Source of the DNA: Bacteroidales bacterium | GTDB lineage: Bacteria; Bacteroidota; Bacteroidia; Bacteroidales; UBA932 | DNA: 47,016 nucleotides | Reading direction: 5' to 3' | Assembly: GCA_017553545.1 (NCBI GenBank) | Contig: JAFZKT010000009.1 | Span: forward strand, 1 to 47,016 | Translations under genes and position numbers: made by a program | Shown: positions 4,229 to 26,009 of the stretch, in pieces | How the letters are laid out: each line of letters begins with the position of its first letter | Position numbering within the stretch: position 1 is the stretch's first letter | The notes under the pieces: generated by a model | Seen by the model: only the letters and a program-made list of their open reading frames with translations | Databases searched by the model: none | Told to the model about the DNA's origin: nothing

Positions 4229-4251
4229 AGGCGCCTTGCAGTTTTTCCTGT

Positions 4252-4289
4252 CAAAGTTAGCAAAAATCGGGAATAATTCCTTAACTTTA
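4252..4289. promoter_or_regulatory. Divergent promoter region, DUF4922 / EEP hydrolase
   Basis: On the minus strand TAACTTTG at 4252-4259 serves DUF4922. On the plus strand the weaker TAACTTTA at 4282-4289 ends 7 bp before the ATG of the EEP gene, so that transcript would be leaderless or nearly so. No clear -33 box is seen for either. Confidence 0.5.
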
Positions 4290-4296
4290 CAACGCT

Positions 4297-5871: not shown

Positions 5872-7100
5872 AGAGACTTCTCTTTTTGCTTTCCTTCGCG
5901 GCCCTGCCCCTGCAGGCCCAGGTGCTCACGGGCATTGACGTGCTGCAGGAAGAAGGCTTCGTCCCGCTGATTGGAAAGCGCGTGGGGCTGGTGACCAACC
6001 CCAGCGGAGTAGACCGGAATGTCCGCTCTACCATCGACATCTTCTATGAGGCCCCCCAGGTGAACCTGGTGGCCCTTTACGGCCCGGAACACGGGGTGCG
6101 CGGGGATGTGTATGCCGGCGGCACCGTCGCGGACAGCAAGGATCCCAAAACCGGCCTTCCCGTCTATTCCCTCTACGGTTCCACCCGTGAGCCCACGCCG
6201 GAAATGCTGAAAGGCGTCGACGTAATGGTCTATGACATCCAGGATGTGGGCACGCGCTGCTACACCTTCATCTCCACCCTGGGCCTGGTGATGCGCGCCT
6301 GCGCCAAAGCGGGTGTGGAAGTAATGGTGCTGGACCGCCCCAATCCGCTGGGAGGCAATAAGATAGAGGGCTCTTACGTGGAGGACGGCTTTTACTCCTT
6401 TGTGAGCGAATTCCGCATCCCCTTCATCTACGGGCTCACTGTCGGGGAGCTCGCCCTGCTCATCAACGATGAAGGCCTGAACCGTGGTCAGAAAGGGAAT
6501 CTGGAGCCCCTCAAATGCAAGCTGAAAGTGATTCCCATGCAGGGTTGGACCCGCTCCATGCTTTTCAAGGACACCGGTCTTCCCTGGATCCTGCCGTCGC
6601 CCAACATCCCCTCCGTCCAGTCGGCCCTCTGCTATGCCGGCTCCGGTATCGGCGGGGAATTCGGCCTTATCAACAACGGTGTGGGGTACACCATCCCCTT
6701 CGAGACCTTTGCCGCGGAATGGATTGACGCCGATGCCCTCAAGGCCCGCCTTGATAGCTACCAAATCCCTGGCGTAGCCTTCCGTACCATCCATTACAAG
6801 CCCTTGTCGGGCAGTCTCGCCGGAACACTCATCCATGGCGTCCAGTTCTTTTACACGGACTATGAAGCGGCCCCCGTCACCCTCATCCAGTTCTATGTCC
6901 TGCAGGCCCTGAACGAACTTTATCCGGAGAAAAATCCCTACCCGCTTAAGAGCACGCGCATGCTCGATATCGTGTGTGGCACGGATTATGTGAGAACTGC
7001 TTTTGGAAAGCGATTGAAAGTGGAGGATATCGTTGACCACTGGAACAAGGATACGGAACACTTCCGCTCGCTCTCTGAAAAGTATTACTTATACCGTTAA
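5865..7100 (+). CDS. namZ: DUF1343 / NamZ-type exo-beta-N-acetylmuramidase
   Basis: A 411-aa protein of the DUF1343 family, whose characterised member NamZ removes N-acetylmuramic acid from the non-reducing end of peptidoglycan fragments. Residues 1-18 form a signal peptide (LLFLLSFAALPLQAQ). Family motifs are GKRVGLVTNPSG, ALYGPEHGVRG, YDIQDVGTRCYTF and LDRPNPLGG in the N-terminal half. The C-terminal half is the usual second domain and ends cleanly. The ATG overlaps the murI stop region by 7 bp. Pairing with murI fits peptidoglycan turnover, though the two act in different compartments. The symbol follows the family. Confidence 0.85.
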   Translation: MLKRLLFLLSFAALPLQAQVLTGIDVLQEEGFVPLIGKRVGLVTNPSGVDRNVRSTIDIFYEAPQVNLVALYGPEHGVRGDVYAGGTVADSKDPKTGLPVYSLYGSTREPTPEMLKGVDVMVYDIQDVGTRCYTFISTLGLVMRACAKAGVEVMVLDRPNPLGGNKIEGSYVEDGFYSFVSEFRIPFIYGLTVGELALLINDEGLNRGQKGNLEPLKCKLKVIPMQGWTRSMLFKDTGLPWILPSPNIPSVQSALCYAGSGIGGEFGLINNGVGYTIPFETFAAEWIDADALKARLDSYQIPGVAFRTIHYKPLSGSLAGTLIHGVQFFYTDYEAAPVTLIQFYVLQALNELYPEKNPYPLKSTRMLDIVCGTDYVRTAFGKRLKVEDIVDHWNKDTEHFRSLSEKYYLYR

Positions 7101-7119
7101 CCGTAAAAACTGAGATGCT

Positions 7120-8484
7120 ATGAAAAGGTTTATGACAATCACCACCGCTTTGGTGCTGGCCCTTTCGCTGATGGCGTCAGAAGGGATGGCACAGACCCGC
7201 TCCTCCTCGAGCTCCTCTTCCACCCGCAGCAGCCAAAGCAGCAGCCGGTCTTCCGGTTCCGGCTCTTCTTCTTCCAGCGTGCGATCCTCCGGAAGTTCTT
7301 CCGCGAACAGATCCAGCGCTTCTTCCAGCCGCAGCAGCGTGTCTTCTGCCCAGCAGGACACCCGCAGCAGCTCCGGCTCTTCGTCTTCCCGCAGCAGCGG
7401 CTCCGTGAGCAACAGCTCCACCCGCAGCAGCGGCAGCAGCAGTTCTTCCAGCGTCCGGTCTTCCGGCAGCAGCTCCTCCAGCGCTTCCCGCAGCGGCAAT
7501 TCCTCTTCCGGCGTCCGCAGTTCTTCCAGCAGCAGCGTCGCAGGTGGAAACAGCTCCGTCCGCTCCAGCGCCAGCAGCAGCTCTTCGTCCGTGCGTTCCT
7601 CTTCGTCGGCCTCTTCCACCCGTTCCAGCAACGTGAGCCGTGAGGGTCTTGCGAACAGCAACACATCGGCCGGAACCGTTTCCTCCAGGGAAGCGTTCCG
7701 CGACGACAGCGGCAACTTCCGCTACCAGGACGACTTCAGCATCGATGCCAACCACAACATGGTGCGTGTGGCACCCCGCAACCGCGATGCAATGGCCTGG
7801 GACCGCGCCGGCGCCTTCTGGGGTGACAAACCTCACTACTTCGGCTACCGTGTCCACAGCCTGCCTTCTTCCTGGCGCCGCATCAGCCACTGGGGCATCG
7901 ACTATTACTTCTACAACGGTATCTACTACCGCAATTATGGCAACGGCTTCGTCATCTGCCGTCCTCCTTTCGGAACTCCGTTAGAGGCTGCCATTGACAG
8001 GGCCCTCCTGCGCACCATCCGCTTTGCCTATTACTGCGATACCTACCGTACCTACAGCCGCACCTTCGACTACTACAATGTCATCGCCCGGCAGAACCTG
8101 ATCATCGCGCAGCAGAACGCCCGCCTGATTGCCCAGAACAATGCTTACGCCCTCAATTCCAGCCGTGCTCTGACGGCCTACGAACTGGCGGAGAAACTGG
8201 GCCTGGTACAGAGTTTCGCCTATGCGAATTCGGATTACTTCTACATGGACGGCGTGTTCTACACCATGTCTGCCTCCGGGGTTTATTCCACCATCATTCC
8301 TCCTGCAGGAGCTTTGGTGACCTCGCTTCCGGACGACTATGAGGTGATTGTGATGAACGGCATTGAATACTATCTGGTGGACAACACCGTCTATCGCACC
8401 ACCCTCTTCGACGGCCAGCCTTACCTGGAGGTCCTCGGGCAGATGTACGGGTCGCTCTACAGCCAATACAACATCTATCGTTAA
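7120..8484 (+). CDS. Secreted Ser/Arg-rich protein with Tyr-rich C-terminal domain
   Basis: A 454-aa exported protein. Residues 1-25 are a signal peptide ending EGMAQ. Residues 26 to about 180 are almost only Ser with regularly spaced Arg (units such as SSSSSVRSSGSS), a low-complexity stretch with no resemblance to a fold. From about 195 the sequence is folded and aromatic: WGIDYYFYNGIYYRNYGNGF, a proline turn, a helical segment, and a second half-related YYLVDNTVYR unit near the end. The aromatic units resemble the DUF6515 type of Bacteroidota surface proteins; that link is tentative. It follows the NamZ-like gene by 19 bp and is closed by a strong terminator. Function unknown. The Ser/Arg stretch could be an O-glycosylated or polyanion-binding stalk. 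Confidence 0.8.
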   Translation: MKRFMTITTALVLALSLMASEGMAQTRSSSSSSSTRSSQSSSRSSGSGSSSSSVRSSGSSSANRSSASSSRSSVSSAQQDTRSSSGSSSSRSSGSVSNSSTRSSGSSSSSSVRSSGSSSSSASRSGNSSSGVRSSSSSSVAGGNSSVRSSASSSSSSVRSSSSASSTRSSNVSREGLANSNTSAGTVSSREAFRDDSGNFRYQDDFSIDANHNMVRVAPRNRDAMAWDRAGAFWGDKPHYFGYRVHSLPSSWRRISHWGIDYYFYNGIYYRNYGNGFVICRPPFGTPLEAAIDRALLRTIRFAYYCDTYRTYSRTFDYYNVIARQNLIIAQQNARLIAQNNAYALNSSRALTAYELAEKLGLVQSFAYANSDYFYMDGVFYTMSASGVYSTIIPPAGALVTSLPDDYEVIVMNGIEYYLVDNTVYRTTLFDGQPYLEVLGQMYGSLYSQYNIYR

Positions 8485-12666: not shown

Positions 12667-13179
12667 ATGAAAAAAATTCTTGTATTTGTTTTTCTCCTTG
12701 TCGGACTGACGGCCGGAGCGCAGAGCTTCGAGAGTACTTTCGTCCAAACCAAGACGCTCACGCTGACGGGAAAGAAAATCGTGAGCGAGGGCGCCATCAC
12801 CTATACCGCTCCGGACAATCTGGCCCTGATTTACAGCAAGCCGGACGGGGACTATTTCATCGTGGACGGTCCCTTCCTGCGCTTTGACCTTCGCGGCAAC
12901 GCGCTGGATGTGAATACGGACAAGAACAAGTCGGTGCGCTTGCAGCGCAACGCCATTCTGTACGGCATCCAGGGGAAGTATGACGATATTGCCAAGGAAA
13001 TGGAGGCGGACTGCACCGTGAGCAGCGTCAAGGGCGGCAAGCACGTCGTCATCAAGGTCCGCAAACCCGCACCGAAAGGCTACACGGGCATGGAACTGGA
13101 CTACAACGCCAAGGGCCGCATCACCCGGATGGTGCTGGAAGAGGCAGGCGGCATATCCACCGAATACCTGGTAAAATAG
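12667..13179 (+). CDS. LolA-like periplasmic lipoprotein carrier
   Basis: A 170-aa exported protein. A signal peptide covers residues 1-19 (LLVGLTAGAQ). The mature part has the LolA pattern: FVQTKTL near its start, a GAITYTAPDNLALIY strand pair, DGPFLRFDLRG, and a final amphipathic strand. LolA proteins carry lipoproteins across the periplasm; Bacteroidota have several divergent copies and this short one may have another cargo. It lies 6 bp after the phosphorylase gene and 4 bp before the Clp gene. Confidence 0.75.
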   Translation: MKKILVFVFLLVGLTAGAQSFESTFVQTKTLTLTGKKIVSEGAITYTAPDNLALIYSKPDGDYFIVDGPFLRFDLRGNALDVNTDKNKSVRLQRNAILYGIQGKYDDIAKEMEADCTVSSVKGGKHVVIKVRKPAPKGYTGMELDYNAKGRITRMVLEEAGGISTEYLVK

Positions 13180-15668: not shown

Positions 15669-15707
15669 TTGCGCTATTGTGCCAAACCGCTGCACAAGTG
15701 AAAAAAT

Positions 15708-16658
15708 ATGAAAAAATTTGCACTATTTTTCTGTTTCCTGCTTCTGGGGCTCTCTGCAGCCGCCCAGGGGGAGGAAAACCGTGAGACCTATCTCTATGCC
15801 AAGCGGGATACCTGTGACCTTTTCATGGACATTTTCCGTCCCGTGGCGGGGGCCGACACAACTTACAACGGCATTGCAAAGCCCACCGTGGTCTTCGTCT
15901 TCGGCGGGGGATTCATCATGGGCGAGCGGGTGGATGATTTTACACAGTTGTGGTTCAATCGGCTGAACGAAAACGGCTACACTGTGGTTACCATCGACTA
16001 TCGGCTGGGAATGAAAGGCCAGAAGGTGGGGAAGGGATTGATTGGGGCATACAAGGCCTCCGGACTGTTCTGTCAGGCCCAGCAGATGGGGGTGGAAGAC
16101 CTTTTCGCCGCCATCAAATTCCTGCACGACAACGGCGAGGAACTGGGCATCGATACGGACAATCTGGTGGTGTCTGGTTCATCGGCCGGGGCGATCATCT
16201 CCCAGGCGGCCGAATACGAGATCCTTTGCGGCCGAACGGGCGTGCTCCCGGAGGGCTTTCAGTTCAAGGGCGTGATGGCCTTTGCCGGCGCCATCATCAG
16301 CAATGACGGTGCGCCCAAGTATCCATCGGCCCCCTGTCCAACGCTCCTGCTGCACGGTACGGCCGACAAAACCGTGGCCTACAGTAAGTTCAGCGCCTTC
16401 GGGCACGGCATCTGGGGCAGTAACTGGCTGGTGAAACACTGGTCCAAGCAAGGCTGGAACAACTACTGCATCTACCGTTTCAAGGGCCGTCAGCACGAGG
16501 TGGCCGCCTATATGAACTACGTCTGGGAAGTGGAGAAGGAATTCCTGGAGCAGAACGTGATCCTGGGCCGCGCCCGCACCGTTGACACCGTCATCGACGA
16601 CCCCTCCCTCCCCACCTGGGAATGGACCCGCGCGAGTCTGGATAATATGTATAGATAA
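15708..16658 (+). CDS. Secreted alpha/beta-hydrolase (esterase/lipase type)
   Basis: A 316-aa exported hydrolase. The signal peptide covers about 1-19 (FCFLLLGLSAAAQ). An oxyanion-hole GGGF motif (VFGGGFIMG), the nucleophile elbow GSSAG, the acidic residue in LLHGTADKTV, and the histidine near RQHEVA form a complete catalytic set of the HSL/BD-FAE-like branch. Likely targets are acyl or acetyl esters. It is monocistronic, followed by a weak hairpin (GGCG/CGCC, then five Ts at 16661-16679) and the repeat-rich island border. Confidence 0.85.
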   Translation: MKKFALFFCFLLLGLSAAAQGEENRETYLYAKRDTCDLFMDIFRPVAGADTTYNGIAKPTVVFVFGGGFIMGERVDDFTQLWFNRLNENGYTVVTIDYRLGMKGQKVGKGLIGAYKASGLFCQAQQMGVEDLFAAIKFLHDNGEELGIDTDNLVVSGSSAGAIISQAAEYEILCGRTGVLPEGFQFKGVMAFAGAIISNDGAPKYPSAPCPTLLLHGTADKTVAYSKFSAFGHGIWGSNWLVKHWSKQGWNNYCIYRFKGRQHEVAAYMNYVWEVEKEFLEQNVILGRARTVDTVIDDPSLPTWEWTRASLDNMYR

Positions 16659-16680
16659 GGGGCGCTGGCGCCTGTTTTTA

Positions 16681-16788
16681 TGTGGCGCGTAAGTTGCTGA
16701 TTTACAGCGTTTTCCATATATTAGGGTGCACCTGGCGGTGCACCCTAAGTTGCGTTATTCGTTGAGTGTCAATTACTTCCGCGCCACA
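16681..16788. repeat. Nested inverted repeats in intergenic region
   Basis: TGTGGCGCG at 16681-16689 pairs with CGCGCCACA at 16780-16788. Inside them an 11-bp perfect hairpin, TTAGGGTGCAC with its complement, spans 16721-16748, and TAAGTTGC occurs on both sides of it. The nested symmetry suggests a REP-like element or the end of a small mobile unit. This is the first third of the gene-free stretch 16659-17021. Confidence 0.55.
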
Positions 16789-16802
16789 GGTGCCTCGGGC
16801 GC

Positions 16803-16854
16803 CCCCATTTCTGCACGATTCCCGGTTTCTCTGCAGATTTCGGTTCCGGTGGGG
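16803..16854. repeat. 50-bp dispersed repeat, copy C
   Basis: The unit starts CCCCATTTCTGC, continues GATTCCCGGTTTCTCTGC and ends TTCCGGTGGGG. Close copies lie at 17901-17951 and 17953-18003; looser ones are at 19251-19349. All are in gaps around the accessory genes. Confidence 0.65.
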
Positions 16855-16889
16855 GTTGCCCGGCCTGACCGGACTTCTCTTCAAATGAA

Positions 16890-16920
16890 TTTGCAGATTT
16901 GGATTTATTTCGTACCTTTG
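16890..16920 (+). promoter_or_regulatory. Canonical promoter with no downstream plus-strand gene
   Basis: TTTG at 16890-16893, exactly 19 bp, then TACCTTTG at 16913-16920. Spacing and sequence match the two tRNA promoters of this window. No plus-strand ORF follows. Confidence 0.75.
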
Positions 16921-16926
16921 CAATTG

Positions 16927-17030
16927 GAATCGTCACGGGGATTTCGCTGAAGGGTTGACAACCCTTTTGAGCCCACAAGCTTGATTCGAGCCCCATTCAA
17001 AAGTCGCGGCCTAGGCGGCTTTTATTTTTT
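16927..17030 (+). ncRNA. Predicted small RNA of about 100 nt
   Basis: This stretch lies between a perfect promoter (16890-16920) and a hairpin terminator at 16999-17030 (AAAAGTCGC/GCGGCTTTT, then ATTTTTT). Inside, AAGGGTT-GAC-AACCCTT forms a hairpin at 16950-16966, and GAAT and GGGG (16927-16940) can pair with CCCCATTC at 16991-16998, giving a closed branched fold. A GATTCGA segment recalls a tRNA T-loop, but no full cloverleaf can be drawn, so a decayed tRNA is an alternative. No protein reading is convincing. Family unknown. Confidence 0.55.
16999..17030. terminator. Hairpin terminator between small RNA and 156-aa gene
   Basis: A 9-bp stem with one T-G pair and a 7-nt loop is followed by ATTTTTT on the plus strand and TTTT on the minus strand. 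It can end both the predicted small RNA and the convergent gene at 17022-17492. Confidence 0.6.
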
Positions 17031-17492
17031 ATTCTCACCTGTTGGTAGTGCGGAAATAGAATACTGGACGTATTCTCCTTTCGATTTCTGGAATCCCACA
17101 ACAAGTCGGATATGCTTGTATCGCATGATAACAATACGCGAGAAAGATTTCTGATTCTTATCGTTCTGTTTCTTGGGGTTAGAGGATTCTTTAACGGCCT
17201 TCGATAGGATATCTGTGAGTTGAAACACGGCTATGGTTGATTCATATGAGCGCGCTGCGTGCTCCACCGTTTCATTATACGACAGCCCTTTTATCTTAAT
17301 CTCTGCCCTCAACGAATGGTTCCACACCGATTTGGATGGATTCTCTGAAATCCATTTGGCGTAAAAGCCTTTGATTATTTGCTCGCGTGCCTTAATCTCC
17401 GGCCGAGTTTTTCCCTGTGGGATTATACTCAGAGAAAATTGGTCGCTATTTGCGACCGGTTTTACGGCTTGTTCGCGTCTCTTATTTTTCAT
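17022..17492 (-). CDS. 156-aa accessory protein, unknown
   Basis: A basic, lysine-rich protein not recognised with confidence. Residues 1-30 are charged. A helical centre holds WNHSLRAEIKIKGLSYNET and AARSYESTIAVFQ. The C terminus (RLVVGFQKSKGEYVQYSIS) looks like a beta-hairpin of the kind seen in small RelE/barnase-like nuclease domains of polyvalent proteins; that comparison is only suggestive. It has its own strong promoter at 17623-17653 and a structured leader of about 125 nt. It lies just outside the left 211-bp repeat. Codon use is AT-richer than the flanking core genes, suggesting acquisition. Confidence 0.65.
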   Translation of the reverse strand: MKNKRREQAVKPVANSDQFSLSIIPQGKTRPEIKAREQIIKGFYAKWISENPSKSVWNHSLRAEIKIKGLSYNETVEHAARSYESTIAVFQLTDILSKAVKESSNPKKQNDKNQKSFSRIVIMRYKHIRLVVGFQKSKGEYVQYSISALPTGENKK

Positions 17493-17616
17493 AGCGCCCT
17501 GGTTAGTTTCAAATTGTGGGGATAGACAAGCTATCCCCGATATTATTGGTTGCTGAAGGCAGGGCCAAACCCCAGGGCTCTTGACTTCAATTCCCGGTTA
17601 AACCGGGTTACTGATC
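17493..17616 (-). promoter_or_regulatory. Structured 5' leader of the 156-aa gene
   Basis: From the predicted start near 17616 to the ATG at 17492 the minus-strand transcript has about 125 untranslated bases. They include the palindrome CCCGGTTTAACCGGG (17592-17606) and a hairpin GGGGATAG/CTATCCCC (17518-17538). Most leaders in this window are under 20 nt, so this one may carry a regulatory element. No known riboswitch class is recognised. Confidence 0.45.
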
Positions 17617-17622
17617 CAATGA

Positions 17623-17653
17623 CAAATATACAATAATCCCTCAAAACCTCAAA
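17623..17653 (-). promoter_or_regulatory. Promoter of the 156-aa gene (TTTG-N19-TATATTTG)
   Basis: On the minus strand TATATTTG is at 17623-17630 and TTTG at 17650-17653, with exactly 19 bp between. The boxes sit just outside the left 211-bp repeat. Confidence 0.75.
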
Positions 17654-17676
17654 GGGAAATCTCCCCGCCCCCTGCG

Positions 17677-17887
17677 GCCGGAAGGGCGGTCCTCCGCTCA
17701 GTGGTTGGAAACGGCCCCTCACCCGGTCGCTGGACGTCCTAACTCCTCCTTTTATGGCCGCGACCTCCGGTCCCAGCCATAACGTCGTCGAACAGACTCC
17801 GTCCTGCCGCTGACGCGGCACCGCTCCCTGCACAAGGCCACCCCGCATGGCCGTTTCCGCCCATTCGCTTTGGACCATCCCTTCCGC
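17677..17887 (-). repeat. 211-bp element, left copy (inverted relative to right copy)
   Basis: The reverse complement of this segment matches 24571-24781 over its whole length with roughly a dozen substitutions and compensating small indels. The outer end carries GCCGGAAGGG and the inner end CCCTTCCGC, a near-copy of the element's 10-bp terminal inverted repeat. A hairpin TTCCGCTC/GAGCGGAA (17882-17901) abuts the inner end. ORFs reading through it are unlikely to be real. It holds most of the gene-free stretch 17493-18007. Confidence 0.85.
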
Positions 17888-17900
17888 TCCGCAGAGCGGA

Positions 17901-18003
17901 ACCCATTTCTGCATAATTCCCGGATATTTGGCAGATTTCAGTTCCGGGCGGACCCCATTTCCGCGCGATTCCCGGTTTCTCTGCGGATTGCAGTTCCGGT
18001 GGG
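17901..18003. repeat. 50-bp repeat, tandem copies A and B
   Basis: Two adjacent units (17901-17951 and 17953-18003), each starting CCCATTTC and ending TTCCGG, match the copy at 16803-16854. They fill the gap between the left 211-bp element and the 3' end of hepT. Confidence 0.65.
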
Positions 18004-18007
18004 ACCG

Positions 18008-18418
18008 TTATGCCTGGCTCTGACCGGGAATCTCGTCGGGAGAACTAGCTGATTCGGTGTTATCTGAGGGTGCTTCTGTATTATTTAACAGCCCTTCGAT
18101 AATTGGATACAGGCTCGGGAGGTCATGAATAGCTGTTTCCCAAAGAATCTCCGGAAGGACTGCAGAGTAGCCGTGGACGAGTACGTGTCGCATCCGGATC
18201 ATCTTTTTCCAGGGGATGTCGGGATGTGCGGCAATATACTCTTTACTCAACATATAGGCGGCTTCCCCGACAATTTCAACGTTTTTCAAAATGGCGAAGT
18301 AACGCAGTTTGTCGGAGATAAACCCGTCAAACGAAAGACCTTGCGTGAATTCTTTCACATTTCCTGCCGCCGTCAGGATGTCCCGCAGCCGCCCCTTATC
18401 TCTAGCTGGCTCTCTCAT
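18008..18418 (-). CDS. hepT: HepT-like HEPN toxin/RNase (DUF86)
   Basis: A 136-aa protein of the DUF86/HepT type. The active-site motif R-x4-H-x-Y is present as RHVLVHGY, with the Arg and His for RNA cleavage and the Tyr that MntA-type partners AMPylate. The preceding helix (VEIVGEAAYMLSKEY) is typical. The start MREPARDKG at 18418 lies inside the end of the nucleotidyltransferase gene (17-bp overlap), so the two are translationally linked. The tail (SASSPDEIPGQ) is acidic and probably disordered. Together they form a HEPN/MNT toxin-antitoxin-like pair. Confidence 0.85.
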   Translation of the reverse strand: MREPARDKGRLRDILTAAGNVKEFTQGLSFDGFISDKLRYFAILKNVEIVGEAAYMLSKEYIAAHPDIPWKKMIRMRHVLVHGYSAVLPEILWETAIHDLPSLYPIIEGLLNNTEAPSDNTESASSPDEIPGQSQA

Positions 18419-19175
18419 ACACCAAGACTTTATCCCTTTCAACGCTTTCGCGCGCAAAAGGCTTAAGGGAGCCGTTTGCCACCAGGTCCACTTTTCGGCC
18501 GGTGGCATTTTCCAGGGACTCAATCACATCCGTATAGGCAAGTAGGCCGATGGGCCTGGCCGGATCTATATCCACCAGAATGTCTATGTCGCTGTCCGGA
18601 CGTTCTTCCTGTCGGGCGAATGAACCGAATATCCACGCCCGGACGATGGGCGCGTTGTTCAATACCTCGCATATGTTTTTGACGATTTCTATTCTTTGCC
18701 GATCAAGCTGTTCGCACAGTTCCATCACTTCCTCCTTTTTCCCTTTTCTGGCCGCATATCTTAATAGTTTGGATACATTTACCGGATACTGCTCGAAGGA
18801 TTGCTGATAAGTCTTAAGCATCTCCGACTCTGTTTCTCCGGCATATTCTTTATCTGCGACAATGTCCACCAGCGACTTCTCCAGAGTGGGAACTGAAATG
18901 CTTCCTTCCGCATACAGCGGGGCTTCCGACACGATAGGTTTTACAAGGATGAAGTCGTGTAAATCATCTATCATCTGATACGCCTTGCGAATGTCCACCA
19001 CATCCGGGAAATGCTTCTTTAACTCAAGCACAACATTCTCCACCTCCCTACGGGGCACTTCCACCACCAGATTCCTTCCTTTATTGATAATACAGTGGTC
19101 CATCCCGACGAAGCGGTCTATCAGGACTTCTATCACCTTTTGCATTAGCGGCGTTATTGTCACGTGGTATTCCAT
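18402..19175 (-). CDS. AbiEi/DUF6577-like domain fused to MNT nucleotidyltransferase
   Basis: A 257-aa two-domain protein. Residues 1 to about 165 resemble the DUF6577/AbiEi-like antitoxin group, with PTLEKSLVDIVADKE and NVSKLLRYAARKGKKEE. Residues 170-257 are a minimal nucleotidyltransferase with GS-x10-DxD as GSFARQEERPDSDID, the motif of MntA proteins that AMPylate and silence HepT. MntA is usually a single domain of about 100-140 aa, so the N-terminal extension is unusual. The start at 19175 was chosen over 19214 because the -7 box at 19193-19200 lies between them. It overlaps hepT by 17 bp. Confidence 0.8.
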   Translation of the reverse strand: MEYHVTITPLMQKVIEVLIDRFVGMDHCIINKGRNLVVEVPRREVENVVLELKKHFPDVVDIRKAYQMIDDLHDFILVKPIVSEAPLYAEGSISVPTLEKSLVDIVADKEYAGETESEMLKTYQQSFEQYPVNVSKLLRYAARKGKKEEVMELCEQLDRQRIEIVKNICEVLNNAPIVRAWIFGSFARQEERPDSDIDILVDIDPARPIGLLAYTDVIESLENATGRKVDLVANGSLKPFARESVERDKVLVYERAS

Positions 19176-19192
19176 ACCTGTTCTCTTTTTTG

Positions 19193-19223
19193 CAAAGATA
19201 TTCAATTCTGGCAATATTTCAAA
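19193..19223 (-). promoter_or_regulatory. Promoter of the MNT-hepT pair (TTTG-N19-TATCTTTG)
   Basis: On the minus strand TATCTTTG is at 19193-19200 and TTTG at 19220-19223 with exactly 19 bp between. The leader is about 12 nt. Confidence 0.8.
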
Positions 19224-19250
19224 ATTATTGCCAAGATGCGCCGGGGATAG

Positions 19251-19349
19251 CGCTTATTTCCGTCGAAATCGCGGGCGTTTGACCGCATTCGGCGACGCCG
19301 GCGCCCATTCCCGCCAGAACCGCGGTTTCTTGACGGCGATCAGTGCTCC
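19251..19349. repeat. Degenerate tandem copies of the 50-bp repeat
   Basis: Two imperfect units (about 19251-19300 and 19301-19349) resemble the 50-bp family: a CCCATTCCCGCC start, a CGCGGTTTCTTG middle and a CAGT end. They fill the gap between the divergent MNT and MazG genes. Further on, CATTCCCAG occurs twice (19389 and 19411 region). Confidence 0.4.
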
Positions 19350-19436
19350 ATATCCCCTTGGTTGAGGAGGTGTGCCTCCAAAGGTCTCATTCCCAGCATA
19401 ACGGTATCAACATTCCCAGAATAAACTAAAAATGAT

Positions 19437-19444
19437 TATCTTTG
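19437..19444 (+). promoter_or_regulatory. -7 box of the MazG-helicase operon
   Basis: TATCTTTG lies 17 bp before the ATG at 19462. The -33 position (19414-19417) reads TTCC and is weak. Only one promoter is evident for the four genes that follow. Confidence 0.6.
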
Positions 19445-19461
19445 TAAGAATCCCTTTTGTT

Positions 19462-19791
19462 ATGACAGATATTGAACAGATTCTGGAGGAGCTGCGTGTG
19501 TTTAACCAGGAACGGGACTGGGATCAGTTTCACAATGGGAAGGACTTGGCCATTGGTCTTTCAGTTGAGGCTTCTGAACTTCTGGAGGCTTTTTTATGGA
19601 AGGCCCCCGAGGATGTAAATAAGAACAAAGTACGGGAAGAGTTGGCCGATGTCCTCAACTATGCATTCCAGATGGCCGATAAGTATAACCTTGATATCAA
19701 GGAGATTATGCTGGATAAGATTCACAAGAATGCGGAGAAGTATCCGGTTGAGAAGGCGAAGGGGAGTGCTAAGAAGTATAATGAACTATAG
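19462..19791 (+). CDS. MazG-like nucleotide pyrophosphohydrolase
   Basis: A 109-aa all-alpha NTP pyrophosphatase of the MazG/DCTPP1 group, which hydrolyses (d)NTPs to monophosphates. The metal-binding ExxE pair is in EASELLEAF and the EExxD pair in REELADVLNYA; WDQFHNGKDLAIGLSVEAS is the usual first helix. The start at 19462 was chosen because the longer frame begins upstream of the promoter box. The stop lies 1 bp before the start of the next gene, so the two are tightly coupled. Relatives of this size occur in phage and defence loci as well as in housekeeping roles. Confidence 0.88.
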   Translation: MTDIEQILEELRVFNQERDWDQFHNGKDLAIGLSVEASELLEAFLWKAPEDVNKNKVREELADVLNYAFQMADKYNLDIKEIMLDKIHKNAEKYPVEKAKGSAKKYNEL

Positions 19792-19792
19792 T

Positions 19793-21568
19793 ATGGCACG
19801 ACAGTCATTAACCATACTCGATTTTAAGTTTCCTGGTGCAGAGCAAGAGATCGCTGCCACGGAACATGGTACTAACTGGCCGGTTGTATACTTGATTTAC
19901 AACGATAAAGAAGTGTACGTGGGAGAAACGACCAGCGCATACGCTCGATATAATCAGCACACTCATGTCGTTGAAAGGCAATCTCTAAAGCACATCAAAA
20001 TTATAATTGACAACCAGTTTAATAAGTCGGCGATTCTTGATATAGAACAGAACCTGATTCATTTACTGGAGACAGATGCTGCCATAGAGGAATCGCAAGG
20101 GCGACATGGGAGGAAGTTACAGAATAAAAATGCCGGTCAGTCATACGCACACGATTACTATGATAGAGCTAGGTATCAGGAGAAGATAGCAAAGATCTGG
20201 GACAGACTCCATAGTATAAAGTTCGTTCATAATCCATATACGGGGATAAAGAATACTGACCTGTTTAAATATTCTCCCTATACAAGTCTTACTGCTGAAC
20301 AGGAATTAGTTTGCCGGGATATCATTAGGGATATTATCACAAAGTTAACATGTGATAAAAAAGGCATGGCGGTTATAAAAGGTGTTGCCGGAACCGGGAA
20401 GTCATTGGTGCTCATTAATATGATTATGACGCTTCTGAAGAGTCAGACCGTTCATTATGATTACGACTTTGAACAAGACTCCGAAGATGATTTGGATGAG
20501 CGTTACGCATTACACGCTGAACTTGAGCGCTTCTATGTGGAATGGAAGCAAAAGACAGGATATGATGATCTCAAAATTGGATTTGTTGTTCCCATGTCTT
20601 CGATTCGAGCCACCTTTAAAATGGTCTTCAAGTATGCTGGAAAGTCCACAAAGGGAATGCGTGCCAGTATGGTGATTGGGCCCAATGAGGTGGTCACAGA
20701 TAAGGGCGAGCGTGACTATGATATTGTCTTTGTTGACGAGTCGCATCGCCTGAAGAGAAGGGTGGCAATGTCCGGGACTGAAATGGGGGCATTCGACAAG
20801 TGTTGCCACAAGCTTAGTATGAATCCCCAGGAAGCGACACATCTGGATTTCCTTCTTAGAAAAAGCCGATATCAAGTGCTTGTCTATGACGAGAATCAGA
20901 GTATCAAGCCCACTGACATTCCCGCTGCAAGGATGATGGCACAATTGGATTCCCATGTTACCATCCGTCGGGAGTTAAAATCCCAGATGCGTTGCCAGGG
21001 CGGAGGTGATTTCATGCAATATGTTGATGATATCTTCAATCTCCGAAATCCCAAGTACCAAAGCTTTGGAAACTACGACTTTAAGTTGTACGACGATCCA
21101 AATGCCATGATCGACTTCCTATGCAGAAGTAACTCAAAAGAGGATCTATGCCGAACGTTGGCGGGCTATTCCTGGGAGTGGGTCTCCAAGAATGGGGGGC
21201 AAAATCTGGATATTGAATTGGATGGGAAGAAATACTTTTGGAACAGGAGCAGTAGTCAGTGGATTCTTAATAGTGAGCCAAAAGAGATAGGTTGTGTTCA
21301 TACTTCTCAGGGGTATGATCTCAACCGTGTTGGCGTTATCCTTGGTCGTGAGATTGACTATGATCCGGAAACTCAGTCCATCGTCGTAAACCGAGACCTT
21401 TTCTTTGACTCTAAAGTCAAGCAACAAACCACCGATGCGCAGCTTAAACAGTTCATTATCAACGCTTACAAAGTGATGCTCGTTCGTGGTATTAAGGGTT
21501 GTTATGTGTATGCATACAATAAGAATCTACGAGAGTATTTAAAGCAGTTCATGCCAGTAGTTAAATAA
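19793..21568 (+). CDS. GIY-YIG nuclease-like domain fused to DUF2075 / Schlafen-group-3 helicase
   Basis: A 591-aa fusion. Residues 30-55 have the GIY-YIG layout: VVYLIYNDKEVYVGET, with VYL and YVG in place of GIY and YIG, then an Arg. From about 190 a superfamily 1-like ATPase of the DUF2075 (Schlafen group 3) type follows: Walker A GVAGTGKS near 198, Walker B VFVDESH near 313, and helicase-like motifs LVYDENQSIKP, RRELKSQMRC and VHTSQGYDLNRVGVI. An ATG at 19781 overlapping the upstream stop is an alternative start. The combination suggests a nucleic-acid remodelling and cleaving enzyme. AT-rich codons and location point to transfer. Function unproven. Confidence 0.85.
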   Translation: MARQSLTILDFKFPGAEQEIAATEHGTNWPVVYLIYNDKEVYVGETTSAYARYNQHTHVVERQSLKHIKIIIDNQFNKSAILDIEQNLIHLLETDAAIEESQGRHGRKLQNKNAGQSYAHDYYDRARYQEKIAKIWDRLHSIKFVHNPYTGIKNTDLFKYSPYTSLTAEQELVCRDIIRDIITKLTCDKKGMAVIKGVAGTGKSLVLINMIMTLLKSQTVHYDYDFEQDSEDDLDERYALHAELERFYVEWKQKTGYDDLKIGFVVPMSSIRATFKMVFKYAGKSTKGMRASMVIGPNEVVTDKGERDYDIVFVDESHRLKRRVAMSGTEMGAFDKCCHKLSMNPQEATHLDFLLRKSRYQVLVYDENQSIKPTDIPAARMMAQLDSHVTIRRELKSQMRCQGGGDFMQYVDDIFNLRNPKYQSFGNYDFKLYDDPNAMIDFLCRSNSKEDLCRTLAGYSWEWVSKNGGQNLDIELDGKKYFWNRSSSQWILNSEPKEIGCVHTSQGYDLNRVGVILGREIDYDPETQSIVVNRDLFFDSKVKQQTTDAQLKQFIINAYKVMLVRGIKGCYVYAYNKNLREYLKQFMPVVK

Positions 21569-21783
21569 TGAAACGTTGTTTTTACGATGACCGCATTCCC
21601 GTTTCCCTCAGCCGAAAGGATGAGGAAATTTTGGGCGTGCTATCGAAAGACAAAGCTTTTGATTTGACCTTGGAGCAGCGTGACGCGTGGCATGAGGGCA
21701 ATCTGACCGACGAAACCCGCAAGCCGGAGTTCTACGACGGCACGTATGAGTATCTGAAGGGGTTGGGGATAAAAGAAATATGA
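21568..21783 (+). CDS. 71-aa small protein, unknown
   Basis: The ATG shares one base with the stop of the helicase gene (TAATG), a strong sign of translational coupling. The protein (MKRCFYDDRI at the start, LKGLGIKEI at the end) is charged, with a helical middle and an aromatic FYDGTYEYL segment. It has no signal peptide, TM helix or recognisable motif. Its place between two helicase genes suggests a subunit or regulator of one of them. Confidence 0.7.
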   Translation: MKRCFYDDRIPVSLSRKDEEILGVLSKDKAFDLTLEQRDAWHEGNLTDETRKPEFYDGTYEYLKGLGIKEI

Positions 21784-21796
21784 TTTCAATTGGATA

Positions 21797-24361
21797 GTGT
21801 TTTTTATCCTTGTTATATTGTTTTTTGTTGCCATCATCCTCGGGGTGATGATTCCGGTACGCAAAAAGCAGCGAGAGAAAAAGCACCAGGAACGGCTGGA
21901 GTCAATAACCAGGCTGACGCCGGACGTTGAGGCCGCCTTGGCTGAGATTTGCACTTTCTACAGTTACAGCCATTATATCACCGAGTCAGAGCGTATCGCC
22001 CTAAATGATAAGTATGCCGCCCTCAACCAGGCTGTTTCGACCATCATCAACAGTAAGGAACTGGAAGAATGCCCCCAGAAGGATAGTTTCAAACGCTTCC
22101 ACAAGGCAATGTCCGACACAAATGGCCACAAGACAGCCAACAATGAGCATTTCATCGAAAACCAGCTAAATGGAGGCGCCCAGTATTTTGACACCGTACT
22201 CGCTTACCCGCTAGATCAGCAGCAGCGTAAAGCCGTAGTCTCTCTGGAAGATAATGTCCTGGTCATAAGCAGTGCCGGCAGCGGCAAGACGATGACCACC
22301 GTCGGCAAGGTCAGGTATCTCATTGATATACAGCACGTCCCGGCCGAAAAGATTCTGCTTATAACCTTTACCCGGAAGGCTGCGGAATCACTGTCGGAGC
22401 GTCTGGGAGAAAAGAAACTGAAATGCCGCACCTTTCACAAGTTAGCACTGGATATCATCGGCGAAAAAACAGGAGAAAAGCCCACAATCACACCTCCGGA
22501 TTTCTCTGTCCAGGTATATCACAAACTATCCCAAAAGAATCCGGATTTCAAAGCGGCCATTGCCGATTACATCATCCGGTCCCGCTACACGATGCGGGAC
22601 CAGTATGAATACACCTCGATGCAGGAGTATATGCAGGACCGTCAGAAACACGGCATCCAGGCCTTCTTCAAGGATATGGACGGCCGACCGGTGTTCTGCA
22701 AATCAGATGAGGAGAGTAAAATTTGTGATTTTCTCGGCTCACGCGGCATAAAATTCCGTTATGAGGAAAAATACGAAATCAATACCGTTGACGCGGAGCA
22801 CCGGCAGTATTGTCCCGATTTCTCCATTTATATCGCTAGCCCGGATGGCCAGACTAAGCGTGTTTATCTGGAGCACTTCGCCATCAATGAGCATGGCCGC
22901 TGTCCTTCCTTTTTCAGCACAGAGGATGAAGTCAAATACAAGCAGGGAATCCAATGGAAGCGCCAACTGCACCAACAGAATGGAACAACGTTACTGGAAA
23001 CAAGCAGCGCAGGATTCCATAAGGGGGATGTTTTTCAAGTACTGTCCCGGCAACTACTAGGCCTTGGCGCCGTCTTCAGCAAAGCCACCAGTCAGAGCGT
23101 TTCCCGGGAGCTTGTCCGTCAAGAGGAGAATATCTTGGATATGCTTACTTCTTTCAACTTCCTCTTGAAATCCAGAGACAAGACTATGGAAGATATCACA
23201 AGGTTAGTAGGAGGAGGGCCGGATTCAATCACCGTCAACGATATTATTGCACCTTTCGTGGAAGCATATCGGAAGATGGAGGAAGAAAACAACGAGATTG
23301 ATTTCACGGATGCGATCATCCGAGCAACAGAGTTGTGCAACAATGGCTACCGCCCAGACTACGATTACATTCTTGTCGATGAGTTCCAGGATATCTCAAT
23401 GGATCGTTATCGCTTCCTGCAGTCGTTGAGGCGCAAGTCTCCTCTCACAAAGCTCTTTTGCGTAGGTGATGACTGGCAGTCCATCTACCGTTTTGCCGGT
23501 AGCGATATGGCCCTATTCAAGCAATTCGAGAATTTCTTTGGTTACACCAAGAAGTGCCTAATGGAGACCACCTATCGTTTCGGGGAACCGGCCATAGCAG
23601 AATCCTCTAAGTTCATTTTGGCAAACCCGGAGCAGGCTGTCAAGAACGTCCATTCCTTCAAGTTAGATGCAGAAACCAAGCTGGACTTTCTCTCCACTGA
23701 TGGGCGTGATGGCGTTGTCGAAACAGTGAAGTACCTGGCCGACCAGATCCCTGCAGACAAAGAAATCCTATTGCTGGGAAGATATGGATTTGATGTCAAT
23801 GTCTTCAAAAACACGGAGCTGGCGGTGCATGACTCAAAAGACCATGTGTATGTGTCCTATGGCAAGCGCAAGATGAGCTTCATGACGGTCCACCAGTCAA
23901 AAGGCCTGGAGTGCGACTATATCATCCTGTTGAACTGCAATGGTGGCACGATTGGATTCCCTTCACAGATTAGCGACAGTCCCGTGCTTAAGTACGTCCT
24001 AAGTGAGCCGGATGCATACGCCTTCAGTGAGGAACGCCGTGTCTTTTACGTGGGCATTACCCGGGCAAAAAAACACACCTGGGTGCTTTACGATATTAAC
24101 AATCCTTCACCATTCGTCAAGGAGTTTGTGAAGACCCTGGAGCCGGAGACGAAACCCGGCACCGACATCCCAGAATCAGAGCTATGCCCCAAATGCCATT
24201 GCGGACGAATTAAGGTGGTCAAAAAAGGTATGGCAAAAAATGGAAATCCATTCACAACGTATGCTTGTGTCAATGAGAGATACGGCTGTGACTATCTGGA
24301 AACCAAGTTCGTGAATCTCAATTCTACGCATAGAATACCATACAAGAAGATTTGGAAGTAG
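21797..24361 (+). CDS. Membrane-anchored UvrD/HelD-like helicase with zinc ribbon
   Basis: An 854-aa superfamily 1 helicase. With the GTG start at 21797 the first 20 residues form a TM helix (FFILVILFFVAIILGVMI) followed by a basic stop; the ATG at codon 18 would remove it. Helicase motifs: Walker A SAGSGKT near 160, VDEFQD near 528, GDDWQSIYRF, and MTVHQSKGLECDYIIL, RRVFYVGITRA. The segment between motifs Ia and II holds CPDFSIYI and VYLEHFAI near 340-362, the HelD-type insertion resembling a PD-(D/E)xK core. The C terminus has a topoisomerase-like zinc ribbon (CPKC near 797-800, two Cys at about 824 and 830). It ends the four-gene run, followed by a terminator. Confidence 0.85.
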   Translation: MFFILVILFFVAIILGVMIPVRKKQREKKHQERLESITRLTPDVEAALAEICTFYSYSHYITESERIALNDKYAALNQAVSTIINSKELEECPQKDSFKRFHKAMSDTNGHKTANNEHFIENQLNGGAQYFDTVLAYPLDQQQRKAVVSLEDNVLVISSAGSGKTMTTVGKVRYLIDIQHVPAEKILLITFTRKAAESLSERLGEKKLKCRTFHKLALDIIGEKTGEKPTITPPDFSVQVYHKLSQKNPDFKAAIADYIIRSRYTMRDQYEYTSMQEYMQDRQKHGIQAFFKDMDGRPVFCKSDEESKICDFLGSRGIKFRYEEKYEINTVDAEHRQYCPDFSIYIASPDGQTKRVYLEHFAINEHGRCPSFFSTEDEVKYKQGIQWKRQLHQQNGTTLLETSSAGFHKGDVFQVLSRQLLGLGAVFSKATSQSVSRELVRQEENILDMLTSFNFLLKSRDKTMEDITRLVGGGPDSITVNDIIAPFVEAYRKMEEENNEIDFTDAIIRATELCNNGYRPDYDYILVDEFQDISMDRYRFLQSLRRKSPLTKLFCVGDDWQSIYRFAGSDMALFKQFENFFGYTKKCLMETTYRFGEPAIAESSKFILANPEQAVKNVHSFKLDAETKLDFLSTDGRDGVVETVKYLADQIPADKEILLLGRYGFDVNVFKNTELAVHDSKDHVYVSYGKRKMSFMTVHQSKGLECDYIILLNCNGGTIGFPSQISDSPVLKYVLSEPDAYAFSEERRVFYVGITRAKKHTWVLYDINNPSPFVKEFVKTLEPETKPGTDIPESELCPKCHCGRIKVVKKGMAKNGNPFTTYACVNERYGCDYLETKFVNLNSTHRIPYKKIWK

Positions 24362-24427
24362 GTTTTTGATATTAAACCTTTAAGTGTGTCCTCCGATATC
24401 ACAAAAGTATTAGAGAAATGTCAAGAT

Positions 24428-24454
24428 AACGCTCGCTTCGGCGGGCGTTTTTTA
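24428..24454 (+). terminator. Terminator of the MazG-helicase operon
   Basis: A 9-bp stem AACGCTCGC/GCGGGCGTT with one T-G pair and a TTCG loop is followed by a T run. It is the only terminator in the plus-strand run from 19.46 kb. Confidence 0.85.
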
Positions 24455-24461
24455 TTGATGG

Positions 24462-24553
24462 GGTGCGCTTAACCTCCTGGATTATGGGACGTCTGCAGCG
24501 TTTAAGGCCGTTTTTGATCTTAACGTCCGTGATTTCGGGACGTTAGGCGCACC
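24462..24553. repeat. Inverted repeat pair plus inner hairpin
   Basis: GGTGCGCTTAAC (24462-24473) pairs with GTTAGGCGCACC (24542-24553) with one T-G pair. Inside, TAACGTCC (24521-24528) pairs with GGACGTTA (24538-24545), so two alternative folds compete. It lies between the operon terminator and the right 211-bp element and may be an end of a mobile unit. It is part of the gene-free stretch 24362-24842. Confidence 0.6.
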
Positions 24554-24570
24554 AAGCCTGATGGTCGCTC

Positions 24571-24781
24571 GCCGGAAGGGATGGTCCAAAGCGAATGGGC
24601 GGAAACGGCCATGTGGGGTGGCTTTGCGCAGGGAGCGGTGCCGCGAAGCGGCAGGACGGAGTCTGTTCGACGACGTTATGGCTGGGACCGGAGGGCACAG
24701 CCATAAAAGGAGGAGTTAGGACGCCCAGCGACCGGGCGAGGGGCCGTTTCCAACCACTGAGCGGAGGACCGCCCTTCCGGC
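24571..24781 (+). repeat. 211-bp element, right copy
   Basis: Bounded by perfect 10-bp terminal inverted repeats, GCCGGAAGGG at 24571-24580 and CCCTTCCGGC at 24772-24781. It matches the reverse complement of 17677-17887. No transposase is encoded. Size and ends fit a MITE-like non-autonomous element, or a conserved structured element copied around the genome. Confidence 0.85.
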
Positions 24782-24800
24782 GGCGAGGAAGGCAGGAGAA

Positions 24801-24824
24801 GCCCGATCCGGTCGGGCATGACGG
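24801..24824 (+). repeat. REP-like palindrome, copy 3 (intergenic)
   Basis: GCCCGATC, two bases, GTCGGGCATGACGG. This intergenic copy is the cleanest palindrome of the family also found at 1025, 1803 and 43168. It lies 20 bp beyond the right 211-bp element and just past the gpsA-like stop. Confidence 0.6.
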
Positions 24825-24842
24825 ATAGGTCGGGGGTAACGG

Positions 24843-25889
24843 CTACAGATTCTCGAACGTAAACAGATCCCAAGGGAGTTCTTCCATCCGGCCGCTGTCA
24901 AGGACGCTGATGACGAAGCGGAGGAGGGGGAAGTCCGCCAGGTTCACTTCGCCTTTGCGGGCGCGGTACTGGATGGAGTCCGAGAGGCGGCGGATGACCA
25001 CCAGGGATTCCAGGGTGAGGCCGCCCAGGAGCTGCTGGGCCTCTTCGCAGGTTTTGCCTTCGCCCAGGAGCATGCCCAGCTTGCGGGTTCGGGCGCCCGT
25101 TGCGGTGACATAGAGGTCTCCGATGCCGATGAGCGTGCTGTCCCACTGGGCGTTCTGTAATTCAAGCACCCTGGTCATTTCCTTCACGGCCTGGGTGAAA
25201 ACCGCCGCCTGGGAGTTGTAGTGGGCGCTTTCGTTGGTGCCGTCGCGCTTGATGGCGTAACCCAGGGCCATGGACACGCCCAGTGCGTAAGCGTTCTTGA
25301 TGGCCACGGCCGTTTCCAGTCCGCGGGCGTCTTTTGTAAGGGAAATATGGAACCAGGAGGTCTGCAGGGCCTTCTGCATCATCTTAAGCAGTGCCGTGTC
25401 TTTGCCGCAGATGACCACCTGCGTATGGTCGTGGTGCATGATGCCGTCGGCCGTGCCGGGACCGCCGAGGGCGTAGATGTTACGGCGGATGCCTTTCTTT
25501 CTGAGCTGACGGATCCAGTAGTCCGGGAAGGAGACCAGTTTGCCTGCGCCTAAATCGGCCAGGCCTTTAGCGGCCGATAATACCGGCATCGCCGGGTCCA
25601 GTTTCATCAGGATTTCCTCCAGGAACCACTCCACGCCGAAGGAGGAGATGGCGCCGATCACAAAATCGGCCCCCTGGACGGCGGACGGCCAGTCTTCACA
25701 ATAAAAGTAACGTGTGCCGGAAGGGTAGGGGATGTCCATTTTGGGGTGTTTGCCGTCCTTCAGACAGGCGTCCACCACCTCTTTGTCTACGGGCGTTCCC
25801 ACCAGCCGGACCTCGTTTCCGTTCTCCGCTGCGACGAACGCCAGGGCAGACCCGATTTGCCCTATGCCAATGATTGTAACTACTGCCAT
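24843..25889 (-). CDS. gpsA: Glycerol-3-phosphate dehydrogenase (NAD(P)+), divergent
   Basis: A 348-aa GpsA-like dehydrogenase, expected to reduce dihydroxyacetone phosphate to sn-glycerol 3-phosphate for phospholipid synthesis. The N-terminal Rossmann motif is GIGQIGSALAF. Other signatures are SAAKGL, the catalytic-lysine region IKNAYALGVSMALGY, and GIGDLYVTATGARTRKLG. The nucleotide loop and several core positions differ from the usual GNGGWGTALA form. The start at 25889 was chosen because the only upstream option is a TTG lying in the -7 box at 25911-25918. It is divergent from gyrA. Confidence 0.75.
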   Translation of the reverse strand: MAVVTIIGIGQIGSALAFVAAENGNEVRLVGTPVDKEVVDACLKDGKHPKMDIPYPSGTRYFYCEDWPSAVQGADFVIGAISSFGVEWFLEEILMKLDPAMPVLSAAKGLADLGAGKLVSFPDYWIRQLRKKGIRRNIYALGGPGTADGIMHHDHTQVVICGKDTALLKMMQKALQTSWFHISLTKDARGLETAVAIKNAYALGVSMALGYAIKRDGTNESAHYNSQAAVFTQAVKEMTRVLELQNAQWDSTLIGIGDLYVTATGARTRKLGMLLGEGKTCEEAQQLLGGLTLESLVVIRRLSDSIQYRARKGEVNLADFPLLRFVISVLDSGRMEELPWDLFTFENL

Positions 25890-25910
25890 AACCTTCTTCT
25901 TTTTGCTTCG

Positions 25911-25918
25911 CAAAGTTA
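25911..25918 (-). promoter_or_regulatory. -7 box of gpsA-like gene
   Basis: TAACTTTG on the minus strand ends 21 bp before the ATG at 25889 and decides the start choice. Confidence 0.6.
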
Positions 25919-25940
25919 GCGAATTTTATTGGAAAAATGT

Positions 25941-25972
25941 GTTGCGTAACTGCGATACTTTTCGTATATTTG
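25941..25972 (+). promoter_or_regulatory. Promoter of gyrA
   Basis: GTTG at 25941-25944, 20 bp, then TATATTTG at 25965-25972. The leader to the ATG at 26010 is about 32 nt. Confidence 0.65.
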
Positions 25973-26009
25973 TACGTTTATAGGAAACAGAAAGTTTTTT
26001 AACTGAAAA

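Follow-up and report, generated by a model that had tools for sequence, protein, structure and literature searches.

Among the described systems that follow a nuclease-plus-helicase logic, Gabija uses separate proteins of families other than those considered here and is not known to have a deoxynucleoside triphosphate (dNTP) hydrolase as a partner, and the same applies to the separate nuclease and helicase proteins of Hachiman (HamAB), as far as the covered parts of its description go. Depletion of dNTPs is a known defense strategy, and deoxycytidine triphosphate (dCTP) pyrophosphatases are known to clean nucleotide pools. Here, we analyze a locus on a 47,016-nucleotide stretch from a Bacteroidales bacterium (the window; GenBank assembly GCA_017553545.1, contig JAFZKT010000009.1), in which a gene for a MazG-like nucleotide pyrophosphohydrolase (gene 1) is followed by a gene for a GIY-YIG nuclease/SLFN-g3 helicase fusion (gene 2), a 71-amino-acid (aa) open reading frame (ORF; gene 3), and a UvrD/helicase-IV-like gene (gene 4). 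An initial annotation had read these as one four-gene defense system, and the four ORFs, all on the + strand at 19462-24361, do have the positions that it gave them. Our results lead us to a different division of the locus, of which we are highly confident: genes 1 and 2 are the unit, the 71-aa ORF is a scar, and gene 4 is a separate gene.

The MazG and GIY-YIG/SLFN-g3 helicase genes form a real two-gene unit. Among all genomes, 556 confirmed relatives of gene 2 were found, of which the 80 most similar to the window were kept; these 80 loci belong to Bacteroidota, Bacillota, Fibrobacterota, Spirochaetota, candidate phyla, and Thermoplasmatota (archaeal bins). In 72 of the 80, no more than 150 bp separate MazG from the relative, and in 67 of these 72 the two genes share a strand. 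MazG stands downstream of the helicase in 9 of the 72, so the order varies and the partnership is retained. Genes 1 and 2 are a conserved unit because this partnership holds across distant phyla; the initial annotation had suggested looking for a conserved order in distant genomes and for genes that occur alone, and this test removes genes 3 and 4 and leaves the pair standing. Within Bacteroidota, a relative of gene 2 (E value of 1e-10) was found in 19 of 395 genomes, 18 of them besides the window, and MazG abuts 16 of these 18 loci, with one more separated by a single intervening gene. A sample of relatives showed the partner in 11 of 15 nonwindow loci, and three of the six plasmid or phage-collection loci examined have a MazG neighbor. 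Counted in reverse, 15 of 22 MazG homologs (296 Bacteroidota genomes, window included; the neighbors of G078, G147, G195, and G199 lay outside the Pfam scan) are beside an SLFN-g3 helicase or one gene from it, one of the 15 helicases being truncated. When SLFN helicases were sorted by type in a family-based sample (30 of 35 places analyzed, the other five having no locus; flanks of about 0.3 to 1.4 kb), MazG was found to abut 4/4 of the GIY type, 5/7 of the PD-(D/E)XK type, and 0/19 of the PDC-S41 type.

Both members of the pair look catalytically active, because the MazG, GIY-YIG, and Walker residues are conserved. Gene 1 matches the MazG-like family PF12643 at 68.2 bits (cutoff, 27), and its closest solved structures are dCTP pyrophosphatases, with dCTP pyrophosphatase 1 (6sqw) matched at an E value of 6.9e-16 by phmmer. 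Its metal site (E36, E39, E60, and D63; ExxE...ExxD) is retained in 72 of 73 aligned rows, the remaining row having a gap, as are W20 and H24, and W46 is retained in 70. Gene 2 matches the SLFN-g3 family PF09848 at 182.7 bits (cutoff, 24) over profile positions 2-353 of 354, with its Walker residues kept in all 81 aligned proteins. Its nuclease region scores 17.3 against the GIY-YIG profile PF01541, below the cutoff of 22.6; of five GIY-type homologs scanned with this profile, three pass, one scores 20.2, and one has no listed match. The Tyr, Tyr, Arg, Glu, and Asn of the catalytic motif of the GIY-YIG superfamily (Y33, Y42, R52, E85, and N111) are retained in 81/81 aligned proteins. Among side observations, three MazG-like matches of 38% identity (G147, G195, and G199) carry one in-frame TGA each, which may reflect a pseudogene, chance, or recoding.

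Some relatives of gene 2 carry an additional C-terminal Peptidase_S24 domain, found at 17 of the 80 loci and also at L006, L013, L089, and L107. The LexA/UmuD-type self-cleavage motif, made up of the Gly of an Ala/Cys-Gly site, a Ser, and a Lys, is complete in 26 of 26 aligned domains, and we suggest that the domain is possibly a damage-triggered switch on the nuclease-helicase. Such a switch would connect the nuclease to the damage response.

Given that the partnership is observed, that catalytic residues are conserved, and that the pair is distributed widely but patchily, we regard a defense role as probable, and the best overall explanation, which we favor with somewhat less assurance, is that MazG and the GIY-YIG/SLFN-g3 protein constitute a transferable module that is most likely an antiphage nuclease-helicase system. 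In such a system, the SLFN-g3 helicase would load or move on foreign or damaged DNA, the GIY-YIG domain would cut the DNA on which the helicase acts, and MazG, being of the dCTP-pyrophosphatase type, would act on the dCTP pool, with either dCTP or a modified dCTP as its substrate. It might remove modified dCTP, so that host DNA would not carry the nuclease's target mark, or it might lower dCTP for the phage. We favor MazG as a sanitizer or immunity partner because it is also found beside HNH nucleases and because MrcB_N, a domain linked to modified-cytosine recognition, is a neighbor on two plasmids, of which one has MazG and the other does not; the modified-dCTP version of the mechanism is nevertheless put forward only tentatively. 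Three of seven MazG homologs without an SLFN-g3 helicase adjoin HNH nucleases of about 300 aa (L305, L313 at 6225-7208, and L310). A C5-cytosine methylase lies near one of these three loci.

Alternatively, MazG could itself be the effector, depleting dCTP upon infection so that phage replication stalls, with the helicase-nuclease serving as the sensor. A dCTP pyrophosphatase with a conserved active site would suit this role, and dNTP depletion has precedent in defense, but the GIY-YIG site is kept as strictly as the MazG site, which fits an active nuclease, and in the three HNH loci the same MazG type is present without such a helicase, so that we consider a MazG effector unlikely. Returning to MazG as a sanitizer, we speculate, as a possibility clearly less secure than the defense role, that the pair is an undescribed and widely transferred bacterial and archaeal immune module in which MazG would define self by purging modified dCTP, the helicase-nuclease would destroy DNA carrying the modification, and, in some lineages, a LexA/UmuD-like autoprotease would tie the nuclease to a DNA damage signal. 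Since the same kind of MazG partners HNH nucleases, a nucleotide sanitizer joined to a nuclease may be a general immunity design in bacteria. In distant microbes, the steady tie of a nucleotide hydrolase to a nuclease-helicase suggests that control of the nucleotide pool and attack on DNA are linked.

The genomic setting bears on whether the pair serves defense at all. A DNA repair and nucleotide-pool housekeeping function, in which the helicase-nuclease would serve repair and MazG would clean the pool, would agree with the pool-cleaning activity of dCTP pyrophosphatases and with the S24 fusions of the relatives' helicases, whose intact LexA/UmuD-like site recalls damage response proteins. The patchy presence of gene 2 relatives in Bacteroidota, the interleaved phyla on the gene 2 tree, the low-GC island, and the plasmid copies beside restriction genes all argue against housekeeping, which we therefore hold to be improbable. 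On the tree, phylum labels are clustered yet require 18 changes where the least possible is 11, with Bacteroidota and candidate-phylum rows interleaved (the group counts leave out six rows without a phylum); this fits transfer and is no proof of it. In the window, the block is a low-GC island, with 44 to 50% GC at 18-24 kb versus 53 to 62% over most of the window (50% in the first kb). On a Priestia plasmid, the pair lies beside MrcB_N and restriction genes, and on a Lactiplantibacillus plantarum plasmid it lies beside a pair of Nudix and PLD-helicase genes and a DUF2357 gene. The latter plasmid (L193) has the Nudix hydrolase and a PLD-nuclease/helicase/DUF3427 protein at 2249-7644, directly before MazG and the GIY-type helicase, and thus carries two hydrolase and nuclease-helicase pairs in succession. 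In a phage collection, four weak records were found, including one short, unverified record (L196) in which MazG adjoins a GIY-type helicase, and a scan of IMG/VR gave 58 pattern matches, none of which was confirmed as a relative.

Several observations weigh against the reading of the pair as a defense module. The 80 loci were chosen by their similarity to the window and many are metagenome bins, so that an isolated assignment to archaea or to a candidate phylum may result from a binning error. MazG is not close in 8 of the 80: three of these have it at a distance of 421 to 1310 bp, and it is not seen in the other five, of which two are cut by contig ends. The partner is likewise missing from four of the 15 loci in the sample of relatives and from three of the six plasmid or phage-collection loci. 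The suggested damage switch is confined to the helicase gene of the S24-bearing relatives, and the domain is missing from gene 2 of the window and from its near relatives (L111-L116). Finally, neighbors of the pair (130 ORFs from 10 loci, minus MazG and helicase ORFs and ORFs of >1500 aa) are only weakly richer in PADLOC matches, at 36 versus 10 families in control stretches (130/169 ORFs from 8/10 stretches), a comparison in which unique proteins were not counted; this enrichment is weakly suggestive of a defense setting.

The 71-aa ORF was counted as a system component by the initial annotation, and this does not hold. Residues 1-43 match one end of a PDC-S41 helicase of about 680 aa (PADLOC) and residues 43-71 match the other, which marks the ORF as what is left of a PDC-S41 helicase gene formerly located downstream in this operon. 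In five other genomes of the same genus (G395, G397, G413, G421, and G439), the ORF gives two separate matches, 1.8 to 1.9 kb apart, that are the start and the end of one open frame of about 680 to 780 aa, and among the 101 genomes searched only the window has both ends within one short ORF. The in-frame internal deletion amounts to about 1.8 kb, with a junction near 21692-21698; DNA comparison supports it to the left and right of the junction (for L082, starting at the TAATG overlap with the preceding gene), and a TGAAG-like microhomology is common to both deletion ends. Gene 3 itself scores 36.2 bits against PDC-S41, with its best stretch at positions 625-653 of 657, and the intact homologs, which are also SLFN-g3 helicases, score 870 (over 1-682) and 794 bits; their N-terminal part reads like a PD-(D/E)XK nuclease by its motifs rather than by a profile match. 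The layout of the window is mirrored at L082, where MazG, an SLFN-g3 helicase of the PD-(D/E)XK type, and an intact PDC-S41 gene follow each other with tight junctions. In 5 of the 80 loci, an intact PDC-S41 gene accompanies the pair: at L113, L114, and L147 it immediately precedes MazG and the GIY-type helicase and shares their strand, and at L117 and L146 it is on the opposite strand, within the stretches examined.

The deletion might still have left a small protein with a function of its own, such as a regulator built from two helicase ends. The ORF remains in frame with its 1-bp overlap with gene 2 retained, and its identity to L081 and L082 (67 to 74% in the N part and 69 to 72% in the C part) resembles that between L081 and L082 (79% and 66%), but its halves derive from opposite ends of one protein, no contiguous 71-aa homolog was found in the other 100 genomes or in the 80 best loci, and the profile search found no domain in it, making a functional product very unlikely. 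The remnant cautions against counting every short ORF among the genes of a system as a component, since such an ORF may be a scar. Helicase genes of the gene 2 and PDC-S41 types decay often: L102 has a decayed PDC-S41 end at about 8039-8122 with stops upstream, and the gene 2 relative of G316 (L004) has an internal TAG.

Gene 4 is a separate helicase-IV-like gene that is loosely attached to the pair. It matches UvrD (PF00580) at 145.3 bits (cutoff, 23) and the helicase IV model NF008276 (HelD/DNA helicase IV) at 361.1 bits, below the equivalog cutoff of 543. The membrane anchor of the initial annotation corresponds to a real hydrophobic N-terminal segment (residues 1-19; Kyte-Doolittle mean of 3.3) that is retained in the six closest orthologs, and the nuclease-like insert, with a PDF...EH motif, is conserved. 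Orthologs with 69 to 82% identity occur in five same-genus genomes among the 101 genomes searched. Near gene 4, the MazG-helicase pair is missing from five of the six closest other loci (one of the five, L097, is on a 5-kb contig) and present only at L081, and a gene-4-like ORF was found in just two of the 80 gene 2 loci, within the stretches examined, both as distant matches. An intact PDC-S41 gene stands directly before gene 4 at L083; for this reason, and with the pair near gene 4 only at L081, the window appears to hold two adjoining pairs, MazG with the helicase and then PDC-S41 with gene 4, the PDC-S41 member of the second pair being reduced to 71 codons.

These results also bear on the proposal that MazG, the nuclease-helicase, the small protein, and the membrane-anchored helicase act together as one defense system. 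The tight gene spacing in the window would favor it, as would the arrangement at L083 and that at L081, where MazG, an SLFN-g3 helicase, PDC-S41, and gene 4 all lie within about 9 kb. It fails, however, because gene 3 is a remnant and gene 4 is loosely linked and usually found without the pair; we reject the proposal as largely refuted and give it hardly any probability.

The positions of these and other features are collected in Table 1. Genes 1 and 2 are separated by a 1-bp gap, and genes 3 and 4 by a 13-bp gap. The single promoter and single terminator of the initial annotation are not established, as matches in the scanned region are not clearly above shuffled expectation (sigma-70-like sites, 15 observed versus 9.6 expected with a standard deviation of 3.7; terminator-like hairpins, 8 observed versus 9.4 expected). 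Ahead of gene 1, TATCTTTG at 19437-19444 agrees with the Bacteroidota -7 consensus and is a possible element of this kind.

Table 1. Positions of genes, domains, and other features in the window
Feature	Position	Strand	Remarks
MazG-like (dCTP-pyrophosphatase-type) nucleotide pyrophosphohydrolase, gene 1	19462..19791	+	109 aa; PF12643
GIY-YIG/SLFN-g3 helicase fusion, gene 2	19793..21568	+	591 aa; PF09848; conserved catalytic and helicase motif residues
GIY-YIG nuclease domain of gene 2, about residues 28-115	19874..20137	+	PF01541 below cutoff; Y33, Y42, R52, E85, N111
SLFN-g3 SF1-type helicase domain of gene 2	20363..21517	+	
71-aa ORF, gene 3, PDC-S41 (SLFN-g3) helicase remnant	21568..21783	+	two ends matching ~680-aa proteins
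UvrD/helicase-IV-like protein, gene 4	21797..24361	+	854 aa; GTG start; hydrophobic N terminus; nuclease-like insert
TATCTTTG, possible Bacteroidota -7 element	19437..19444	+	from the sequence
Terminator-like hairpin with T tail	24428..24449	+	such sites not above chance in region
Left copy of dispersed ~210-bp repeat, inverted versus right copy	17674..17886	-	
Right copy of dispersed ~210-bp repeat	24573..24784	+	

The HEPN/MNT pair that had been noted beside the genes is present, on the opposite strand and inside the low-GC island; PF01934 passes its cutoff, and scores against the NCBIfam equivalog models of the HepT/MntA type VII toxin-antitoxin system are lower than the cutoffs of 60 each (HepT, 29.2 bits; MntA, 48.8 bits). 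The MNT protein (18402-19214, - strand) joins a DUF6577/AbiEi-like part at its N terminus to the nucleotidyltransferase, and its gene overlaps the HEPN ORF. The low-GC island is bracketed by inverted copies of a dispersed repeat of about 210 bp. This repeat has 11 genomic places, the copies on either side of the island being most alike (95%, versus 84 to 89% for the others), and its DNA fold has a z-score of -3.5. Beside the island is an LPD3-domain ORF (17022-17492, - strand); at L081, LPD3-domain ORFs (12677-13099 and 15683-16111) lie around the MazG-helicase unit, and one of the two separates the helicase from PDC-S41. A 51-nucleotide direct repeat has three copies in noncoding DNA left of the island (16803-16853, 17901-17951, and 17953-18003). 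Apart from gpsA, the genes that flank the block in the window are missing from six same-genus stretches around gpsA homologs, and Rfam gave no match within 16500-26000 at gathering thresholds.

The initial annotation recognized parts of the kinds used in phage defense in a set that it could not name, and both statements are supported. In the profile search, no PADLOC model covers the four-gene set or the MazG-helicase pair, and no description of the pair turned up in the literature covered, from which preprints are largely absent; the passages considered of PMC12839542 (on BREX) and PMC11811056 do not describe it. Gene 1 resembles dCTP pyrophosphatase 1 and MazG-like enzymes (6sqw and 2a3q), with which it aligns over residues 12-109, including the metal-site and base-side residues, and differs from them in being coupled to a nuclease-helicase gene. 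Three candidates were rejected for gene 2. The PADLOC candidate PDC-S14 matches its GIY-YIG region (residues 40-112) at 19.9 bits, but these profiles of 301 to 320 aa cover that region only and leave the helicase part unmatched. AbiO and Nhi, both in PADLOC, likewise unite nuclease and helicase functions in one protein, as the passages on Nhi in PMC11811056 describe, and gene 2 shows weak similarity to them around the P-loop (46.4 bits to Nhi and 38.1 bits to AbiO), but the best stretches are limited to positions 151-228 of 470 and 167-220 of 468, respectively, and these passages mention neither a MazG partner nor a GIY-YIG domain for Nhi. PDC-S41 (PDLC05014), the intact form of gene 3, is also an SLFN-g3 helicase with an N-terminal nuclease-like region; it is, however, a single gene, with MazG beside none of the 19 examples, the window holds only its two ends, and gene 2 matches it at 15.4 bits over positions 558-622, a partial coverage of the profile. 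Set against these systems, the MazG-helicase pair looks like an undescribed defense unit of the nuclease-helicase kind, a function that we infer, in which a nucleotide pyrophosphohydrolase is the usual companion of a GIY-YIG/SLFN-g3 protein.

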